Origin: Jiangella aurantiaca
GTDB lineage: Bacteria; Actinomycetota; Actinomycetes; Jiangellales; Jiangellaceae
Assembly: GCF_004349105.1 (NCBI RefSeq)
Contig: NZ_SMLB01000002.1
Coordinates: forward strand, 62,001 to 126,000
Length of the DNA stretch: 64,000 nucleotides
Reading direction: 5' to 3'
The notes beneath the pieces are model-generated. The model worked only from the letters and a program-made list of their open reading frames with translations, had not been told where the DNA came from and ran no database searches. Positions 10,871 to 52,941 of the stretch are shown piece after piece. Positions within the stretch are counted from its first letter, which is position 1; each line of letters opens with the position of its first letter. Both the position numbers and the translations under genes were made by a program.

Positions 10871-12100
10871 ATGACCGTCCCCAACGGCCTTCGCATCACC
10901 GCTCTCGCCGCCGCCAGCTGCCTGGCGCTCACGGCTTGTATCAGCGGCGACGACCAGGGCACGGACGCCGAAGGCGGCGACGACACCATCAGGATCGGCA
11001 TCTCTCTGCCGTTGACCGGCGACTTCGCGGAGCCGGGCAAGGGTGTGCAGCAGGGCTATGAGGCCTGGGCGGCGTACACGAACGAGAACGGCGGCCTGCT
11101 CGGCCGGGACGTCGAGCTGACGATCCTGGACGACCAGTCGAACGCGGACCGGGTCGCCGCAGACTACGAGAGGCTGATCAACGAGGACGGCGTCGACCTG
11201 GTCTTCGGGCCGTTCTCGACCCGCCTCGTGATCCCCGCCGCGCAGGTCGCGCAGGACTACGGCTTCCTGTTCGTCGAGCCCGCCGGCGCCGCGCCCGAGG
11301 TGTTCAGCCAGGGTTTCGACAACCTCTTCTACGCGGCTCCCGCCGTCGCCGACGACCACTACAACCACCTTGCCGACGCGATCGAGGCGATGCCCGCGGC
11401 CGAGCGACCCCAGACCGCCGCCTACGCGGCCATGGACGATCCGTTCGCGATGGGGACCGCCTACGGCCTCAAGGCGCGCCTGGAAGCGATGGGCGTCACG
11501 ACCGTGGCCGACGAGGTCTATCCGCCGAACACCACCGACTTCAGCAGCATCGCGGCGACGATCGCCAGCAGCGACGCCGACATCATGGTCGGCGGGTCGC
11601 AGTACCAGGACGCGGTCAATCTGATCCTCGCGCTCCAGCAGCTGGACTACCAGCCACGGATGGCGGCGTTCTCGACCGCACCGACCAACCCGGAGTTCCC
11701 CGAGGCGATCGGCGAGAAGACCGAGGGCATCCTGTCCCCGACCGGCTACACCCCGGAGGCGGACTACCCCTCCAACCAGGAGTTCGTCGAGTTCTACACC
11801 GAGGAGTACGGCACCGCGCCGGGTGAGGATCAGGCCAACGCGTGGACGACCGGCCAGGTCGTCGCCGCCGCGGTCGAGGCCGTCGGGTGTGCCGACCCCG
11901 AGCCCGACTGCCAGCAGCAGCTCATCGACTGGCTGCACGAGAACGAGGTCGAGACCGTCGTCGGCCCGCTCAGCTGGGACGCCGACGGCCGCCCGGAGGG
12001 CGCCCACCTGATCCAGCAATACGTCGACGGCCAGATCCGGATCGTCCTCCCGGAGGATGCGGCCGAAGCCGAGTTGATCGTCGAGAAGCCGGCGTGGTGA
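10871..12100 (+). CDS. Liv-type ABC transporter substrate-binding lipoprotein
   Basis: A 409-residue type I periplasmic-binding protein of the Peripla_BP_6 (LivJ-like) family. A signal peptide ends in the lipobox LALTAC with cysteine 23. The mature protein begins IRIGISLPLTGDFAEPGK, the family's opening strand, and continues with ELTILDDQSNADR and the VFGPFSTR segment that precedes the ligand site. The ATG at 10871 was preferred over an upstream alternative at 10847 because GAGGAG lies at 10861-10866. It leads five co-directional transporter genes. Family members bind branched-chain amino acids, amides, urea or aromatic and sugar-derived acids; the LacI control and downstream GSDH protein favour a carbohydrate-derived ligand, which is inference. 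Confidence 0.93.
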   Translation: MTVPNGLRITALAAASCLALTACISGDDQGTDAEGGDDTIRIGISLPLTGDFAEPGKGVQQGYEAWAAYTNENGGLLGRDVELTILDDQSNADRVAADYERLINEDGVDLVFGPFSTRLVIPAAQVAQDYGFLFVEPAGAAPEVFSQGFDNLFYAAPAVADDHYNHLADAIEAMPAAERPQTAAYAAMDDPFAMGTAYGLKARLEAMGVTTVADEVYPPNTTDFSSIAATIASSDADIMVGGSQYQDAVNLILALQQLDYQPRMAAFSTAPTNPEFPEAIGEKTEGILSPTGYTPEADYPSNQEFVEFYTEEYGTAPGEDQANAWTTGQVVAAAVEAVGCADPEPDCQQQLIDWLHENEVETVVGPLSWDADGRPEGAHLIQQYVDGQIRIVLPEDAAEAELIVEKPAW

Positions 12101-14852: not shown

Positions 14853-15591
14853 CTACCTGCTCGAGCTCGACGACATCGAGGCGGGCTACGGGCGCGCCGC
14901 CCTGGTGCTGCGCGGCCTGACCGTGAAGGTCCCCGCGGGGTCGGTCGTGTGCCTGGTCGGACCCAACGGCGCCGGCAAGTCCACCGTCCTCAAGGTCGCC
15001 AGCGGCATGCTCGCGCCTCGCTCCGGCACGATCCGCGTCTGCGGCGACGACGTGACCGGCTTCGGACCGCAACAGATGCTGACCGCTGGTCTCTCCCACG
15101 TGCTCCAAGGACACAGCGTGTTCCGGGAGATGACCGTCGAGGAGAACGTCCTGCTGGGCGCCTACACGATCCGCGACCGCGCCGCGATCGCCGAGCGGGT
15201 CGGCTTCGTCAAGGAGCTGTTCCCCGTCGTCGGCGACCGGTGGAAGGCGCTGGCCGGAGCGCTGTCCGGCGGCGAGCAGAAGCAGGTCGAGTTCGCCCGC
15301 TCGCTGATGGTCAGCCCGCGGGTGGTGCTGCTCGACGAACCGTCGATGGGCCTCGACCCCAGGGCGACGGCGTCCGTCTTCGAGCAGGTGATCCGGATGC
15401 GTGACGCGGGCACCGCCGTCCTGCTCGTCGAGCAGAACGCGCGCCGCGCGCTCGAGACCGCCGACCTCGGCTGCGTGCTGGACCTCGGCCGGGTCCACAT
15501 CGACGGTCCCGCCTCCGAGCTGCTCAAGGACCCCCAGCTCGCCGAGCTGTACCTCGGCGGCCGGCCCGCCGCGGCACCACCCGCATCGTGA
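14842..15591 (+). CDS. Liv-type ABC transporter ATP-binding protein (LivF-like)
   Basis: A 249-residue ATPase with Walker A GPNGAGKS (about residues 39-46), the LivF-type GLSHVLQGHSVFREMTVEEN, the signature LSGGEQKQVEFARSL, Walker B VVLLDEPSMGLDP and the switch histidine replaced by glutamine in LLVEQNA, as usual in LivF. The start is TTG at 14842 with GGAGG at 14831-14835 inside the upstream gene, the same start arrangement as the LivM-like gene. It completes a five-gene importer. Confidence 0.93.
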   Translation: MASDYLLELDDIEAGYGRAALVLRGLTVKVPAGSVVCLVGPNGAGKSTVLKVASGMLAPRSGTIRVCGDDVTGFGPQQMLTAGLSHVLQGHSVFREMTVEENVLLGAYTIRDRAAIAERVGFVKELFPVVGDRWKALAGALSGGEQKQVEFARSLMVSPRVVLLDEPSMGLDPRATASVFEQVIRMRDAGTAVLLVEQNARRALETADLGCVLDLGRVHIDGPASELLKDPQLAELYLGGRPAAAPPAS

Positions 15592-15608
15592 CGCACGGAG
15601 GCCGGACG

Positions 15609-15657
15609 CCGACCGCGAAGGTCCCAGGCGGCGGCGAGTCCCACAACGGAAAGGAAA
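15609..15657 (+). repeat. 49-nt element, copy 1 (after livF-like gene)
   Basis: This segment, 17 nt after the livF-like stop, matches a 48-nt segment at 25431-25478 (minus strand) at all but about four positions; its core is GGTCCCAGGCGGCGGCGAG at about 15620-15638. Both copies are in sense orientation within a Liv-type importer operon. It lies 85 nt upstream of the GSDH-LamG gene. It may be a cis-acting RNA or a dispersed repeat; no known riboswitch class was recognised. Confidence 0.6.
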
Positions 15658-15741
15658 CCAGCCCGGATCGGCTCGGCCGCACCCGCAAGTAGATCGCAGC
15701 AGTTGTTCCCATCCGCATCCGACAGTGAGGGACGAGGACCC

Positions 15742-18104: not shown

Positions 18105-18133
18105 GCGTTCTGCTGTCATCGACCGCTGCACGT

Positions 18134-18168
18134 GTCGGGGCCCGGCGCGTGGTGCGCCGGGCCCCGAC
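18134..18168 (-). terminator. Strong hairpin terminator for the converging minus-strand operon
   Basis: A perfect 15-bp stem, GTCGGGGCCCGGCGC (18134-18148) with GCGCCGGGCCCCGAC (18154-18168), encloses the loop GTGGT. It lies 50 nt past the stop of the long minus-strand gene, beside the terminator at 18072-18104. Confidence 0.75.
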
Positions 18169-18218
18169 CCTTGCTGACCGCGGCGGGGAGGAGAGTGCCC
18201 GCCGCGGCCATGTCCCCG

Positions 18219-21200
18219 TCAGCCGAGGGCGAAGGAGCCGCCGGACCTCCCGACGTCGCTCCGGGCGGCGGCCCGCTGGATGCTGCTCGCCTCGCGCCCG
18301 GTGATGACGCCGTCGGCCTGCAGCTGCTGGGTGACCTCGGTGACGTGCCGGAGGAACGCCCCTCGGCTGCTCCACGGCTGCTCGTCGAGGATGAGGTCGT
18401 TGATCGTCGTGCCGCTCGACACCGTCCGGTTCGCCACACCGCTGTCGATGCCCCCGACGATCACCATCGTGTCGGCGACGACGACGGTCGACTGCTGCCA
18501 GTCACCGACGTTGCCCGCCGCGTCGACGGACCGGTACTCGACCTCGTACACGGCTGCCGGATCGAGCGTGACCGGCCCCGAGTACACCGTGTGGTCGGCG
18601 TCGCCGGCCAGGCGGTAGTGCGTCTCGACGGCACCCGACGCCGCATCCGTGGCGGCGAGCGTCAGCGTCGCCGGCCCCAGGTAGACGTCGCCGTCGAGAT
18701 CGCCCTCGACCGTCGCAGTGGTCTCCGGCGCGGTCACGTCGACCGCGACCTCGACCGTGCCGGCCTCCGACGTTCCCGCGGCGTTGGTCGCGCGGTACGC
18801 GACCGTGTGCGTGCCGTCCTCGTCGAGCGTGACCGGCCCGGTGTAGGCCGTCCACTCCCCCTCGCCGACGCGGTACTCGATGTCGGCATCGGGATCGTCC
18901 GCGGACAGCGTCACCGTCACCGGCGTGACGTACCAGCCGTCCTGTCCGTCCGGCTCGGCCGGAGCCACGGTGGCCGACACGGTCGGCACCTGGACGCCCG
19001 GTCCGGCGTTGAGGTGCAGCCAGTTGACGTTCGCCTCGGCACCCGGGAACACCAGGTACAGCTGGGTGCTGCCCTCGGTCGGGGCGAGGTCGACGGTGAC
19101 GTCGGTCCAGTTGGCCACGGCAGGGTTGAGGACGATGGAGCCGTCGTTGCCCCGACCGGACGAGTCGGCGAGCGTGGGGCCGCCGGTTTCGTCGACGTCG
19201 TAGGCGACGACGTTGCCGCCTGCCTCGCCGGCCGGTCCGGCCATGAGCGCCTGGAGCTGTGCCTGAGTGAGAGCGCTGTCGAAGATGTGGAACTCGTCGA
19301 GCGTCGCGTTCAGGTACGGGTCCGCGGCGTACTGCGACCGGATCAGCCAGTTCTGGGTCGTCTCGCCGAGCTCGGCCGGGTTGAACGTCATGTTCGCGTT
19401 CGTCGCGACCGGAGCGCCGTCGAGCCACAGTGTTCCGGTGGTCCCGGACAGCGTCACCGCCACGTGGTGCCAGCCGGCGGGCAGCTCCTGGTTGTAAGTG
19501 ATCTGCTGCTCGGACGCACCCTGCGGCTTGATGGCGTAACGGAGCCCGGGAGCGCCGCCCGCGTTGGGCGTCAGGAACATGTTGACGCCCGTGCCCGACC
19601 CGAAGTCGAAGATCCGGGACCAGTCCTGGCCGGTGGCGGCGCGGTTGATCCAGGTGGCGATGGTGAAGTCGCCGGTCAGGTCGCTCACCACACCGACCGG
19701 AAGCTCCGCATACCGGTTCGCGCCACCGGAGTTGAACTGGACGGCGTTGCCGAACCCGTCCTTGCCCGGCACCCGGCCTATCTCCGTCGTGGCGGGCACC
19801 TCCGCCGTACCCAGCAGCGGACCGTCCGGTGCGTCGCGCCGCACCTCGACCGTCGTGTCGGCCAGCGCCGACACCCGCAGGTCCAGCGACTCGACACCGC
19901 CCAGGCTCACCGGGTCGTACGAGGCCCAGTCGCCGTCCGCGCCGCGCATCGTCTCGCCGCCGCCGAGCGGGTCGCTCCCCGGACCGGTGACGACGCCCGT
20001 GGACTCACTGAAGTGCTCGGCCTCCGTCCGGGCCGGCCGCAGCAGGTGACTGTTGCCGCCGGTGAGCGGCTGTGCGTCCGGGTGGTCGCCCTCGTCGGTG
20101 TAACTGGCGGTGACGATCACGGTGACGTTCTGGCCTTCGTGGCCGCTCTCGGGGTCGGTGAGGATCGTGCCCTCGCACCCGTTCTGCGACGCTCCCTGGT
20201 GCACGTGTACCGCGCCGCCGGTGTCGTGGTACACACCCTGCTGCACGGTCACGTCCGCGCAGTCGATGGTGCCATCGGCGGTGGAGCCGTCCTCGGCGTC
20301 CGTGACGGACACCCGGAACGGCACCTCGTCGCCCCACTCGAACACCTGACCGTGCGCAGGCAACTCGATGCTGACCTCCGGCTCGGTGTTGCCGACGGTG
20401 ATCGTCAGATTCGAGCTCGCGGAACGACCTGTGGTGTCGGTGACCACGAGTTGAGCGGTGTAGACCCCCGCCTCGGTGTAGGTGTGCGTCGGATTCGGCT
20501 CGGTGCTGGTGGCGCCGTCGCCGAACGACCACTCGAACGTGATCTCGTCGCCGTCGGCGTCGAACGTGCCCTCGGACGAGAACGTCACCTCGACCGGCGG
20601 CTGGCCGTTGTCCGGCGTGGCCGACGAATGAACGGTCGGGGTCCGGCCGTCCTTGACATAGCTGATCCGGTACAGGCCGGAGTCGGGGTTGACCCCACCG
20701 CCGCCGAAGTTGAACTCGTCTCCCCACTCGATCAGGTACAGATTGCCGTCGGGGCCGAACTCCATGTCGTGCGGCTTGCGCAGGCGCTGGCTGTCCTCGA
20801 ACCGGAAGCCGTAGAACTGCTCCCGGAGCGAGCCGTTGACGTAGTTGCCGTTGGCGTCGAGGTCCATCGTGGCGATGAAGTCGCGCTCCCACTCCATGAC
20901 GAACGGCTTGCCGTCGAAGAACGCGGGGAACCTGCCGTCCGCCGTCACGGCCGGGTCGAAGTGGTACGTGTCGCCGGCGTAGGCGGCGCGCCCGGTGCCG
21001 TAGGCCGAGCCGCCGGCGACCGGACCGCACGGAACCTCCGGGTACGGCGGCGGGGCCGTGTAGCCGCCCTGGCTGTTGCAGTACGGGTAGTAGACCGTCG
21101 GCAGTTGCTCGACGGGCGGCAGCCGGTCGATGCCGGTGTTGTTCGGCGAGTCGTTCACCGGCCCGCCGACGCAGTCGTACGGCTCACCGACCACGTTCGT

Positions 21201-22949
21201 GGCGAAGTCGAAGTGGCGGTAGGGCTGGCTGTTGACGATGCAGAACGGCCATCCGTAGTTGCTGGCCTCGTGCACCTGGGCCCAGTAGTCGTAGCCACGC
21301 GGGCCGCGGTTCGGGTCGACACCGCCGGCCGGGTTGGCGTCGGGGCCCACCAGACCGAAGGTGAGCACGCCGGTCTCCTGGTCGATGTCCAGGGTGAACG
21401 GGTTGCGCAGACCCATGACGTAGATCTCCGGCCGCCCCAGTGCGGGGTCGTAGACACCGCCGGGGAAGAGGTCGTCGTGCTCGCCGCTGGTGAAGAGGTT
21501 GTCGTCGGGCACGTCGAAGGTACTGCCCACACCCGGGGCGTCGTCGCTGGTGGCGTCCTCGATCGGGTTGATCCGCAGGATCTTGCCCCGCAGGTCGGCG
21601 GCGTTGCCGGACGACCGCGCCGCGTCCCACGGCTGGCGACCCGGCCGGTAGTCGAACGGGCCGAAGCCGCCCGACGCGAACGGGTTGGTGTCGTCGCCGG
21701 TGGAGATGTAGAGGTTGCCCTCGGCATCGAAGTCGAGGTGACCGCCGGTGTGGCAGCATTCGACCCGCTGGTGCGGGATCTCGAGCAGGACGACCTCGGA
21801 GTCCAGGTCGATCTGCTCGCTCAACGGGTCCAGGGTGAACCGCGAGACGTGCTGGACGCCGCCGGCGATCCCGTCGACGGTGCGCGACGCCGGGTCACTG
21901 TAGAACAGATAGAGGAAGTTGTTCTCCTCGAACGCCGGGTCCAGCGCGATGCCGATCAGGCCGTTCTCCTGGCCGCGGTAGACCGGGATCTGACCCGCCG
22001 TGGAGATCTGCTGGGTGTCCGGGTGGTAGACCTTCACCGCGCCGGCCAGCTCCGTGTAGAAGATGCGACCGTCTGACGCGATGTCGAGCTTCATCGGGTT
22101 CGCGGTGTTGTCATCCAGCGCGACCTTCTCGAAGGCGGCGGCGGTGGGAATGCCCTCGCGCGGCTCACCGCAGTCGCCCTCGGCAGTACCGGCCGCCCAT
22201 TCGATGGCCCAGCCGATGTGCTGCCGGAAGCCCGGGTCGGCGTAGTGGCTGGCCGAGTGCCCGAGGGCGGTGTAGAACGACCGGCCGCCGTCGTACACCG
22301 AGCACCAGGAGACCGGGTGGTCCGCGCCCATCTGGCCGCCGTTGTAGGTGGACTCGTCGACCGTCAGCAGGACCTTGACGCCTGCGGCACGAGGGTTCGC
22401 GGAGAAGTTGTAGAACTCGTCGCTCGGCCACTGGAACGAGCTTCCGAACTGCGCGGTGGCCGGATGGCCGGGATCCTCGACCTTCACCGTGGCTGACTGG
22501 ATGGGCGGGTGGTTGACGAAGAACGCACCACCGAACATGTCCTTCCACCACGGCCAGTTCGACTTGTCCGTGTTGGACGTGGAGTGCAGGCCGACGAAGC
22601 CGCCGCCGCGCTGGATGTAGCGCTCGAACGCGGTTCGCTGCGGCGTGGTCAAGGTGTTCTCGCCGTCGGTGTAGAACACCACCGCCTCGAACTCGCTCAG
22701 GCTCTCGTCGGTGAAGACCGACGCGTCCTGCGTCTCCGTCACCGTGAATCCGTGGTCCGCGCCCAGCGCCTGGACAGCGGCAAGCGCGGCCGGGATCGAG
22801 TCGTGCCGGAACCCGGTCGTCTTGTGGAAGAACAGGACCTCGTACCCGGCCTCGGGGGTGTGTGCGGAACTGGTGGCGATGCCGGGGAACAGCGCGGCCA
22901 GGAAGGCCGCCACCACCGTGAATGTGAGGTAACGATAAAGTCGTCGCAT
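18219..22949 (-). CDS. Large secreted ThuA-GSDH-PKD-CBM6/LamG-Ig-FIMAH multidomain protein
   Basis: A 1576-residue exported protein with signal peptide (residues 1-29, YLTFTVVAAFLAALFPGIAT). Domains in order: a ThuA-like class I glutamine-amidotransferase fold at about 33-255 (VLFFHKTTGFRHDSIPAAL, GGGFVGLHS); a GSDH-type beta-propeller at about 270-765 (GLIGIALDPAFEENNFLYLF, HTGGHLDFDAEGNLYISTGD); a PKD domain at about 770-870 (FEWSFGDGATSTEPNPTHTY); a CBM6-like jelly roll beginning at EAEHFSE near 976 and closing at LYLVFPGAEANVNWLHLN near 1300; a LamG domain nested between those parts (about 1060-1275); two Ig-like OmpL47/chitobiase-type repeats (about 1310-1495); and a C-terminal FIMAH-type helical domain. 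ThuA-GSDH fusions accompany keto-sugar and glycoside catabolism. It is the last gene of the minus-strand operon from 30280. The long opposite-strand open frame here is only a GC shadow. Confidence 0.88.
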   Translation of the reverse strand: MRRLYRYLTFTVVAAFLAALFPGIATSSAHTPEAGYEVLFFHKTTGFRHDSIPAALAAVQALGADHGFTVTETQDASVFTDESLSEFEAVVFYTDGENTLTTPQRTAFERYIQRGGGFVGLHSTSNTDKSNWPWWKDMFGGAFFVNHPPIQSATVKVEDPGHPATAQFGSSFQWPSDEFYNFSANPRAAGVKVLLTVDESTYNGGQMGADHPVSWCSVYDGGRSFYTALGHSASHYADPGFRQHIGWAIEWAAGTAEGDCGEPREGIPTAAAFEKVALDDNTANPMKLDIASDGRIFYTELAGAVKVYHPDTQQISTAGQIPVYRGQENGLIGIALDPAFEENNFLYLFYSDPASRTVDGIAGGVQHVSRFTLDPLSEQIDLDSEVVLLEIPHQRVECCHTGGHLDFDAEGNLYISTGDDTNPFASGGFGPFDYRPGRQPWDAARSSGNAADLRGKILRINPIEDATSDDAPGVGSTFDVPDDNLFTSGEHDDLFPGGVYDPALGRPEIYVMGLRNPFTLDIDQETGVLTFGLVGPDANPAGGVDPNRGPRGYDYWAQVHEASNYGWPFCIVNSQPYRHFDFATNVVGEPYDCVGGPVNDSPNNTGIDRLPPVEQLPTVYYPYCNSQGGYTAPPPYPEVPCGPVAGGSAYGTGRAAYAGDTYHFDPAVTADGRFPAFFDGKPFVMEWERDFIATMDLDANGNYVNGSLREQFYGFRFEDSQRLRKPHDMEFGPDGNLYLIEWGDEFNFGGGGVNPDSGLYRISYVKDGRTPTVHSSATPDNGQPPVEVTFSSEGTFDADGDEITFEWSFGDGATSTEPNPTHTYTEAGVYTAQLVVTDTTGRSASSNLTITVGNTEPEVSIELPAHGQVFEWGDEVPFRVSVTDAEDGSTADGTIDCADVTVQQGVYHDTGGAVHVHQGASQNGCEGTILTDPESGHEGQNVTVIVTASYTDEGDHPDAQPLTGGNSHLLRPARTEAEHFSESTGVVTGPGSDPLGGGETMRGADGDWASYDPVSLGGVESLDLRVSALADTTVEVRRDAPDGPLLGTAEVPATTEIGRVPGKDGFGNAVQFNSGGANRYAELPVGVVSDLTGDFTIATWINRAATGQDWSRIFDFGSGTGVNMFLTPNAGGAPGLRYAIKPQGASEQQITYNQELPAGWHHVAVTLSGTTGTLWLDGAPVATNANMTFNPAELGETTQNWLIRSQYAADPYLNATLDEFHIFDSALTQAQLQALMAGPAGEAGGNVVAYDVDETGGPTLADSSGRGNDGSIVLNPAVANWTDVTVDLAPTEGSTQLYLVFPGAEANVNWLHLNAGPGVQVPTVSATVAPAEPDGQDGWYVTPVTVTLSADDPDADIEYRVGEGEWTAYTGPVTLDEDGTHTVAYRATNAAGTSEAGTVEVAVDVTAPETTATVEGDLDGDVYLGPATLTLAATDAASGAVETHYRLAGDADHTVYSGPVTLDPAAVYEVEYRSVDAAGNVGDWQQSTVVVADTMVIVGGIDSGVANRTVSSGTTINDLILDEQPWSSRGAFLRHVTEVTQQLQADGVITGREASSIQRAAARSDVGRSGGSFALG

Positions 22950-25416: not shown

Positions 25417-25430
25417 GGCGATCCTCCTCC

Positions 25431-25478
25431 TTTCCATTCCCTTGCGGGACTCGCCGCCGCCTGGGACCTCGCGGTCGG
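25431..25478 (-). repeat. 48-nt element, copy 2 (upstream of livG-like gene)
   Basis: This is nearly identical to 15609-15657 when read on the minus strand, with one 1-nt indel and about three substitutions. It fills the gap between the binding-protein stop (25487-25489) and the livG-like ribosome-binding site. The purine-rich end of the element (GGAATGGAAA) merges with that site, so it could affect translation of the ATPases. Confidence 0.6.
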
Positions 25479-25486
25479 CTTGGGGA

Positions 25487-44770: not shown

Positions 44771-45688
44771 TCATGAGCCGATCCGCGCGGACACCCATGC
44801 GTCGACCCGCGCGTGATCCCAGGCGCCGTCGGCGACGGCCACCTGGTACGCCCGGCGCGTGGTGGCGCCGGGCGCGAGCGCGAACGTCTCGTGGAAGGCC
44901 CATGACGGGTTGACGGCGGCGAACTCCGTGGCACGGACGAACCAAGTGCCCGGTACGTCCCGGTCGTCGACGAAAACCAGCGTCGAACTGCGGTCGACCT
45001 CGTCGTGGTGCCCGACGAACGCCAGCCAGGGCGCCTCCGTCGCGGCGGTGCCGCGGAACTCGTCGGCGTCGGCCTCACCTCGCGGACCGAGCACCTGGCC
45101 GCCGGTGAACGACCTCGGGCCCCGCCAGAACAGCCCGGCGTACCCGGCGTTCGGCCGGCCGTGGGTGGTGGGGCTGCCGAACACGAGCGGCTCGGCGGTC
45201 GCGTTCGTGATCTCCGACGTCCATGCCAGGGTCCAGCTGCCCGCTGCCTCGTCGACGTCGCCGAACACCAGCGCCCGGCGTTCCGTGCACAGCCGGTCGC
45301 CGGCCGCGGTGGTCCAGGTCAGGTCCTGCCGCACCCGTACCCGCGTGTCCTCGGCGGCGACGGCAACGTCGCCGTCCGGCCGCATCGCGCCGACGTTGTC
45401 CAGCCGCACGTAGCCACGGTCCGGGACGTACGTGTTGCCGCCCCACAGGTTGTGGCCGGAGACGTCGGTGGCGGTCAGCTGCAGGCCCTTGTGCCAGCGG
45501 TGGTCATGCGGGCGGTACCCGGTCACGACGTCGCCGGCGATCGTCCGCAGCGGATGCAGGTACGGCTTCGGTGCCTCGAAGGTGTCCGGGTCCGGCGCGT
45601 AGACGTACCGCGCGATCGGCACGTCGGCGAACGAAACGGTGACGTCGGCACCGTGCGCGTGGGTGACCTGAAGTCGTCGGTCGCTCAT
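44771..45688 (-). CDS. DUF6807 / PmoA-like protein
   Basis: A 305-residue beta-sandwich protein of the family named PmoA-like or DUF6807. The landmark segment is GYRPHDHRWHKGLQLTATDV near residues 58-77, with a second group FGSPTTHGRPNAGYAGLFWR near 170-190. Members occur beside Gfo/Idh/MocA enzymes and TIM-barrel epimerases in sugar catabolic clusters; the catalytic role is not settled to my knowledge. The name derives from annotation and does not imply methane oxidation. It is the last gene of the long minus-strand operon and its ATG overlaps the stop of the oxidoreductase gene by four bases. Confidence 0.85.
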   Translation of the reverse strand: MSDRRLQVTHAHGADVTVSFADVPIARYVYAPDPDTFEAPKPYLHPLRTIAGDVVTGYRPHDHRWHKGLQLTATDVSGHNLWGGNTYVPDRGYVRLDNVGAMRPDGDVAVAAEDTRVRVRQDLTWTTAAGDRLCTERRALVFGDVDEAAGSWTLAWTSEITNATAEPLVFGSPTTHGRPNAGYAGLFWRGPRSFTGGQVLGPRGEADADEFRGTAATEAPWLAFVGHHDEVDRSSTLVFVDDRDVPGTWFVRATEFAAVNPSWAFHETFALAPGATTRRAYQVAVADGAWDHARVDAWVSARIGS

Positions 45689-51881: not shown

Positions 51882-52941
51882 GCGGGATCGCCTGCTCGGT
51901 GACCGGGTCGAAGAGATGAACGTGACCGTCGACGTCGAACGCCACCGGATCACCGGGTCCGATCGGCAGGTCGTCCTCGAGCACCGCCGTCACCTCGGTC
52001 CCGTCACCCGTGGTGAACCGGACGATCTGCTCGACGAAGCCCTCCTCGACGTCGACCACGGTTCCGGACAACGCCGCGGACGCGGTGTGTGCCGGCCGCA
52101 TCGACTCGGGCCGGAACCCGACGATGACCCGGCCGGATCCGGAGCGGGCGACCCGCTCGATCGGCACCTCGACGCCGGAGGCGCGGGCCACGCCGCCATC
52201 GAGCGCCGCCGGAACCAGGTTCATCGGCGGGCTGCCCACGAAACGCGCCACGAAGGTGTTCGCCGGCGCCGACAGCAGCTCGTCGGGCGTGCTGACCTGC
52301 TGCACCCGCCCATGCGACATCACCGCTACCAGGTCGGCCATGGCAAAGGCCTCGCTCTGGTCGTGGGTGACGTAGACACTGGGCCGCTTCTTCTCGCGGT
52401 GCACCGCGACGATGTCGCGCCGGGCGTGATGGCGCAGCTTCGGGTCGAGGTTGGACAGCGGTTCGTCGAACAGGTAGGCGTCGGCGTCCTTGACCATGGC
52501 CCTGGCCAGAGCCACTCGCTGCTGCTCGCCGCCGGACAGGTCCTGGGTCGACCGGCCCAGCATCTCGCCGAGGCCGAGCTTGCCGGCCGCCTCCACCACG
52601 CGCCGCTGGATCTCGTCCTTCGGCAGGCCGCCGCGAGACTCCAGGCCGTAGGCGATGTTGCCGCGGACGTCCATGGCCGGATACAGGCCGTAGTCCTGGA
52701 AGACCATGCCGAGGTTGCGCTGGCGCGGCGGCAGTGTATGGATCTCCCGTCCGTCGAGCAGGATCTGGCCGGCGTCCGGCCGCTCCAGCCCGCAGATCAG
52801 GCGCAGGAGGGTCGACTTCCCGCTGCCGGACGTGCCGAGGATGACGAAGAGCTCACCCGTGGCGACGGTGAAGCTGACGTCGTCGACCGCCTGATGACCG
52901 CCGAGCCGCTTCGAAACGCCCCGGACCTCGAGCTCACCCAT
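51874..52941 (-). CDS. MalK/UgpC-type ABC ATPase, third in the operon
   Basis: A 355-residue sugar ABC ATPase with TOBE-type C-terminal domain. Walker A GTSGSGKST (about residues 34-42), Q-loop FQDYGLYPAM, signature LSGGEQQRVALARAM, Walker B AYLFDEPLSNLD, switch VTHDQSEAFA. Residues about 235-355 form the OB/TOBE regulatory part, ending DVDGHVHLFDPVTEQAIPRA. Adjacent operon members are a DUF624-like membrane protein (8-nt overlap) and the chaperonin-like protein (8-nt overlap). Two further ATPases of the same class lie upstream in the operon, more than the one or two that the two permeases need. Confidence 0.93.
   Translation of the reverse strand: MGELEVRGVSKRLGGHQAVDDVSFTVATGELFVILGTSGSGKSTLLRLICGLERPDAGQILLDGREIHTLPPRQRNLGMVFQDYGLYPAMDVRGNIAYGLESRGGLPKDEIQRRVVEAAGKLGLGEMLGRSTQDLSGGEQQRVALARAMVKDADAYLFDEPLSNLDPKLRHHARRDIVAVHREKKRPSVYVTHDQSEAFAMADLVAVMSHGRVQQVSTPDELLSAPANTFVARFVGSPPMNLVPAALDGGVARASGVEVPIERVARSGSGRVIVGFRPESMRPAHTASAALSGTVVDVEEGFVEQIVRFTTGDGTEVTAVLEDDLPIGPGDPVAFDVDGHVHLFDPVTEQAIPRA

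Follow-up and report, generated by a model that had tools for sequence, protein, structure and literature searches.

The window analysed here, a stretch of 64,000 nt from Jiangella aurantiaca, contains two near-identical short elements on the sense strand, one in each of two regions encoding Liv-type transporters. The question raised by this arrangement is whether the elements are regulatory RNAs that control the transporter operons or copies of a dispersed repeat, and, in the latter case, by what means such a repeat could occupy the junctions between genes. The explanation favoured here, with a probability of roughly 0.8, is that both belong to a family of miniature, non-autonomous mobile repeats, about 60 bp long, which has spread in this genome and in most of the genus genomes examined.

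Two copies in the window and their gene setting

Genes matching the Pfam families Peripla_BP_6, BPD_transp_2 and ABC_tran are found in both regions, and a GSDH gene, likewise recognised through Pfam, follows copy 1. The binding-protein gene upstream of copy 2 is the Peripla_BP_6 member, while the livG-like gene downstream encodes an ATPase whose nearest named relatives are those of Jiangella endophytica and J. ureilytica, at 91-92% identity. Copy 1 begins approximately 14-16 nt downstream of the livF-like TGA (15589-15591), and copy 2 is flanked by the TAG of the binding-protein gene (25489-25487) and the ATG of the livG-like gene (25416-25414). The original prediction, that a near-identical element is present in both Liv-type operons, is borne out by an exact 23-nt core in two copies that both lie in the sense orientation; the boundaries it gave (15609-15657 and 25431-25478) are off by no more than a few bases, and the insert is about 60 nt long. 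The features of the two copies are as follows.

15606..15662 (+): element copy 1, in the gap from the livF-like stop to the GSDH gene; covariance-model score 68.2 bits
15620..15642 (+): core of 23 nt in copy 1, the same in copy 2 (exact match)
15659..15661 (+): right-end CAG of copy 1, from the sequence and the family statistics for the right-end YAG
25426..25481 (-): element copy 2, in the gap from the binding-protein stop to the livG-like start; covariance-model score 77.6 bits
25487..25490 (-): left-end CTAG of copy 2, which includes the TAG stop codon of the binding-protein gene, from the sequence
25453..25479 (-): predicted imperfect hairpin 1, with a stem of 8 bp, a bulged A and a loop of 10 nt, from the DNA fold of the consensus
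25438..25449 (-): predicted mini-hairpin 2 (TCCC, 4-nt loop, GGGA), from the DNA fold of the consensus and the sequence
25423..25435 (-): right-end purine tract resembling a Shine-Dalgarno sequence, directly before the livG-like start, from the sequence and the family anti-Shine-Dalgarno energies

The left end of copy 1 is without a CTAG. When up to three mismatches are allowed, the 23-nt core has two matches in the window, both of them exact, against a mean of 0.01 expected from 100 shuffles. These copies are also the only strong covariance-model matches in the window, the third-best scoring 13.9 bits.

One other feature of the window lies between the two copies, at 18132-22949, where an ORF of 1314 aa on the forward strand (18132-22076) overlaps almost fully with one of 1576 aa on the reverse strand (18219-22949); the forward frame has no Pfam match and the codon-usage caller favours the reverse frame.

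Family size and distribution

Across the 6.62 Mb genome the 23-nt core occurs 88 times with at most three mismatches (42 forward and 46 reverse), whereas the reversed-pattern control gives no match. A covariance model built from 84 aligned copies detects at least 134 copies at E <= 0.01, with 150 candidates scored, and the earlier suggestion of a dispersed repeat is thus upheld. Applied to 11 congeners, the same model gives 49, 29, 28, 20, 15, 14, 11, 2, 1, 0 and 0 matches (28 being the count for G002 and 11 that for G006), and the element is present in ten of the 12 Jiangella genomes; the search of the genome and its relatives that had been proposed at the outset therefore places the family in its own genome and in most of those examined from the genus. 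Outside Jiangella, 14 core matches are found in nine of 48 genomes, all with three mismatches, and the reversed-pattern control yields five in the same 48. Because these out-of-genus matches are near the control level, the family looks restricted to the genus at this sensitivity. In the titles and opening parts of abstracts of open-licence PMC articles, no description of such a repeat in Jiangella was found, and the accessible part of the J. gansuensis genome paper uses the word 'repeat' for CRISPR only.

The individual analyses below concern 122 distinct copies of the at least 134; these were reached via sequence patterns, such that copies with a decayed core are under-represented among them. 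Four of 90 loose matches were dropped, and two deviant copies (L011 and L194) were kept in the 122 but left out of the 84-copy alignment. The 84 aligned copies agree with their consensus at an average of 43 of 48 positions, and copies average only about 76% identity to one another. The core consensus of 32 distinct copies from relatives is the same as that of the 84, although the former were found with patterns made from the latter, which favours likeness. That the two sets share a core consensus despite the low pairwise identity suggests a star-shaped family centred on a master sequence that has been preserved, with copies that would drift independently after insertion. The description of the repeat as 'recent' is only partly sustained, in view of this average agreement of 43 of 48 with the consensus and of the occupation of some sites in sister species. 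At two loci, L160 and L288, copies are arranged head to tail as tandems, with a common AG junction and periods of approximately 60-61 nt.

Empty and occupied orthologous sites

At the locus of copy 2, the gap between TAG and ATG is 10 nt in L081 and L082 but 70 nt in the genome studied, corresponding to an insert of 60 nt by which the livG leader has been lengthened; CTAG or TTAG is present in these empty sites as well. A diverged element occupies the same place in L080, and none is found in the Euzebyaceae locus L083. L080 and L081 are two paralogous livG-type loci of J. endophytica, only one of which has the element before livG. At the locus of copy 1, G007 and G008 are without the element, and the nine remaining genomes of the genus yielded only matches of 65-68% identity for this locus.

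Of six further sites tried, five have empty relatives and the sixth (L200 site A) is not alignable with relatives. At L200 sites B and C the element is absent in the relatives compared, several of which hold other, unrelated inserts at site B. The three sites in L201 are each empty in the remaining relatives compared, but site 52197 is occupied also in G002 alone, site 52741 also in G008, and site 44797 also in G006 and, in diverged form, in G011. With at least one other carrier at three empty-site loci, the copies are in part not private to this genome. The insert measures 60 nt at 52197 (a span of 82 against 22), where the copy sits in a coding frame open on both sides, and 60 nt at 52741 (78 against 18 in eight loci); it is 59-60 nt at 44797 and at site B, where the anchors of the own and relative sequences are one base apart, and 57-58 nt at site C. 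Many copies, orthologous sites that are filled in some genomes and empty in others, and an insert that varies little, at 57-60 nt, are the features of a miniature dispersed mobile repeat, and it is this presence and absence among relatives that suggests the element has moved.

A separate observation was made at the L200 site near 11196, where L221, L225, L227 and L228 have different, unrelated inserts in the corresponding short convergent gap. These include a long palindrome in L221 and inserts of several hundred nt in L227 and L228, such that the gap resembles an insertion hot spot.

Anatomy and insertion footprint

The consensus consists of CTAG, 5-7 variable nt, GCCGACCGCGAGGTCCCAGGCGGCGGCGAGTCCCACAAGGGAAAGG, a few nt and YAG. 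CTAG is found within 12 nt to the left of GCCG in 44 of the 122 distinct copies, compared with 0-2 in nine of ten shifted control windows; the tenth, at +60, gives 13 and falls on the right end. YAG is present at the right end in 78 of the 122. Only about one third of copies have kept the CTAG, and several of the empty sites in relatives read CTGA. There are no terminal inverted repeats, as the ends CTAGCC... and ...AACCAG, compared by eye, match inversely only at CT/AG. The consensus is open in all six frames, and its sense strand is devoid of ATG, GTG and TTG.

In the orientation of the element, the empty state of site B reads ...GTCTAGCGGGC..., and the occupied state reads ...GTCTAA, followed by the element ending in ATCAG and then by CGGGC. 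In this footprint the left tetranucleotide keeps its position, and the right flank continues beyond YAG. The left CTAG and the right YAG have AG in common, and the empty sites fit either a duplication of 2 nt or none. On the favoured explanation, insertion occurs preferentially beside CTAG, often where this contains the TAG stop of the upstream gene, and because the flank resumes after the right-end YAG at several empty sites, the chemistry would seem to duplicate few target bases, if any.

Gene context and strand bias

Gene starts were taken from the authors' own codon-usage caller, according to which 43 of the 122 copies lie in the sense orientation between co-directional genes and 23 in the antisense orientation, with 26 in divergent gaps, 20 in convergent gaps, four inside genes and six having one flank uncalled. 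A looser first pass of the gene caller had placed 16 of 86 copies inside genes, as against the four of 122 in the stricter pass on the larger set. The left end contributes a TAG in 51 copies, which in 22 of these is the in-frame stop of the upstream coding frame.

Among co-directional gaps overall, the ratio of sense to antisense copies of 43:23 departs from equality (p = 0.019). It rises to 23:6 where the next start codon is within 20 nt (p = 0.002, this split having been chosen post hoc), and is 9:13 where the start is more than 20 nt away (p = 0.52). These last two ratios are based on copies with a callable start, namely 32 of the 43 sense and 19 of the 23 antisense copies, 11 and four being without one. 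The bias in tight gaps is stable at cut-offs of 5-30 nt and across three coding-score thresholds, whereas at 50 nt with the strictest threshold the ratio is 26:14 (p = 0.08). In 17 of the 32 sense copies the called start lies from -3 to +4 relative to the right end. The strand preference is real, but conditional on a nearby start codon.

The original prediction held that copies without preference for strand or neighbour would mark the element as an ordinary repeat. This applies to the neighbours, but not to the strand, given the sense excess in co-directional gaps and particularly in tight ones. Ten of the 31 genes downstream of sense copies were scanned and are mutually unrelated, none being Liv-type; they encode a beta-eliminating lyase, a type III pantothenate kinase, an ABC permease, two GFO/IDH/MocA oxidoreductases, an XdhC-like protein, a cyclopropane synthetase-like methyltransferase, a class-III aminotransferase and two weakly assigned proteins. 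The special significance originally attached to sense placement in two related operons is not supported by these neighbours, nor by the absence of both window copies from some relatives.

The right end carries AGGGAAAGGA, a Shine-Dalgarno-like tract. Paired with the 16S tail, the right end has a mean anti-Shine-Dalgarno duplex energy of -9.9 kcal/mol, against -3.9 kcal/mol for the reversed left end. When the 23 sense copies in tight gaps are set against the remaining 99 copies, their tract pairs somewhat more strongly, at -10.8 (one-sided p = 0.03). This tract may make sense insertion between genes tolerable. A sense copy would retain the upstream stop and offer the next gene a built-in tract, while an antisense copy would bring no such tract and could destroy the upstream stop. 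Antisense copies tight against a start codon are rare, probably through selection against them, as they could lose the stop and would provide no tract.

The competing account with the best prospects, although at rather less than even odds, is that stop-codon geometry alone generates the sense bias in tight gaps, antisense insertion at CTAG removing the upstream stop irrespective of any Shine-Dalgarno function in the element. The 22 of 51 left-end TAGs that serve as upstream stops accord with this, as do the divergent gaps, which lend the Shine-Dalgarno reading no support, there being no preference for the right end (starts within 20 nt at five of 16 right ends and eight of 17 left ends). Also against that reading, a cruder count places nearby starts at 34 of 52 right ends and 25 of 45 left ends. 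Geometry alone sits less easily with the limitation of the bias to gaps with a close start codon, and with the stronger anti-Shine-Dalgarno pairing of the tight sense copies.

Candidate mobilising enzymes

A search for the Y1/RAYT transposase (PF01797) found none in any of the 12 genus genomes, including that of the window, whereas the control search was positive in five of 14 control genomes. This weighs against the possibility that the mobile repeat is of the REP/PATE type, moved in trans by an HUH Y1 enzyme (RAYT or IS200/IS605 TnpA) that has since been lost or become too diverged, which is considered unlikely. Such an enzyme would be compatible with a left CTAG near an imperfect hairpin, with the lack of terminal inverted repeats, with the footprint of a retained left CTAG and a right-end YAG followed by the original flank, and with the sense-strand DNA-fold z of -2.15. 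However, the CTAG is 5-7 nt from the hairpin, compared with 0-2 nt in the REPs collected in PMC6006769, and that survey, in the part available, describes the Y1 enzymes of the Actinobacteridae in its sample as belonging to the IS200 subclass only.

Less probable again is that the element is the passenger of a recombinase acting at the common AG/CT dinucleotide, for instance a bridge-RNA enzyme of the IS110 type or one of the serine recombinases. The common junction ending in AG of the tandem copies at L160 and L288 is suggestive of this, and the footprint fits a 2-nt common core, that of IS621 being CT. Against it, IS110 genes are found in eight of the 12 genomes but not in G002 or G006, which have 28 and 11 copies of the element, and at 18 of 20 IS110 loci the element ends match no better than one shuffle each, to within one mismatch. 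Nor does the covariance model detect an element at E <= 0.01 in these 20 loci, the best match scoring 16.7 bits (E = 0.05). On these grounds IS110 is not supported as the carrier. At L374 and L381, neighbouring IS110 loci of G009, the left 18 nt match with three mismatches against six and five when shuffled; this likeness is probably due to chance, there being no covariance-model element at either.

Spread via plasmids or phages is also not supported, with one partial plasmid match of 28 nt and none in phages, and viral contigs contain no exact 20-nt match. Among the half-pattern matches read in the own genome there is no longer parental element or half-element, and those read that were not core matches are full elements that have diverged; the reading covered the loci of 30 of 53 and 30 of 84 of these matches, together with some further loci. 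The family is a tiny repeat that has spread without a detectable transposase of the usual REP kind, and it offers several pairs of empty and occupied sites from which to search for the enzyme.

Secondary structure and the riboswitch hypothesis

As single-stranded DNA, the consensus is predicted to fold into a hairpin of 8 bp that contains a bulged A, and a mini-hairpin of 4 bp, with z of -2.15 for the sense and -1.30 for the antisense strand; the window copies folded as RNA are unremarkable (z of -1.68 to +0.08). Covariance modelling, which had been put forward as a check on the element, reveals no compensation in the predicted stems. Over 12 pairs in the 84 copies, 89.5% of cells are paired compared with 89.6% in shuffles, and two-sided changes affect one cell (2.4 in shuffles) and one pair (2.0 in shuffles), while RNAalifold predicts no pairs. 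The fold may serve movement of the master, with no sign of its upkeep in resident copies. The comparison with Rfam, also proposed originally, returns nothing in the window that reaches the gathering score; around copy 1 the only match is at chance level (E = 3).

That the element is a riboswitch or other cis-regulatory RNA controlling Liv-type branched-chain transporter operons, as two sense copies with a conserved core in two Liv-type regions might suggest, is extremely improbable in view of the 86 further core matches elsewhere in the genome, the unrelated genes downstream, the empty orthologous loci, the lack of compensatory stem changes and of an Rfam match, and a predicted loop about as conserved as the stems, albeit that the selection pattern covers most of the loop. 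Because copies are dispersed genome-wide, sites are empty in relatives, the stems show no compensation and Rfam gives no match, a miniature mobile repeat is preferred over a riboswitch. There is no sign of a ligand-binding or Liv-specific function, and a false regulatory lead is thereby removed.

Comparison with known repeats

The Jiangella element behaves like other miniature dispersed repeats and, of the defining features looked for, lacks one or more from each of three known types, namely REP/RAYT systems, classical MITEs and mycobacterial interspersed repetitive units (MIRUs). A more specific characterisation can be offered tentatively, as something short of an even bet: a lineage-specific stop-to-start cassette of 60 nt, targeted to CTAG stops, equipped with its own Shine-Dalgarno sequence at the opposite end, moved by an enzyme other than HUH Y1 and able to colonise operon junctions with little harm.

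MIRUs, in the accessible portion of PMC12548453, are likewise short, apparently mobile actinobacterial repeats at gene junctions that spare the expression of the next gene, and carry an ORF that is coupled to the start downstream at -4 nt. On that description, the element is set apart by keeping or providing a left TAG stop and a right Shine-Dalgarno-like tract; an internal ORF overlapping the next start is not found, the left end often being TAG and the consensus having no start codon. In sparing the next gene, the element may resemble MIRUs by analogy. If the Shine-Dalgarno reading is true, it would represent a second route, beside coupling of the MIRU type, by which mobile DNA can lie between operon genes without silencing them.

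The resemblance to REPs and REPINs, as far as the excerpts of PMC3733652 and PMC6006769 describe these, lies in small imperfect palindromes at high copy number, mostly extragenic but with some copies inside genes, near a conserved tetranucleotide. The tetranucleotide of the element is, however, CTAG rather than GT[AG]G, and is not at the foot of the palindrome, as the GTAG of REPs is, but 5-7 nt off the stem; on the same descriptions the second mini-hairpin is a further difference, as is the Y1 gene not found in the 12 genus genomes.

Like classical MITEs, the element is short, non-coding, dispersed and polymorphic in its presence between relatives. It differs from them in having no terminal inverted repeats, no longer parental element among the matches read, and no clear full target duplication, because its right end is mostly YCAG and not CTAG.

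A final comparison can be made with the Rickettsia palindromic element (RPE). As described for RPEs in the available part of PMC3733652, in-frame coding insertion appears tolerable for the element, the 60 nt of which amount to 20 codons at one site; relative to that description of RPEs, it differs in lying inside genes in only four of 122 copies by the authors' own caller.
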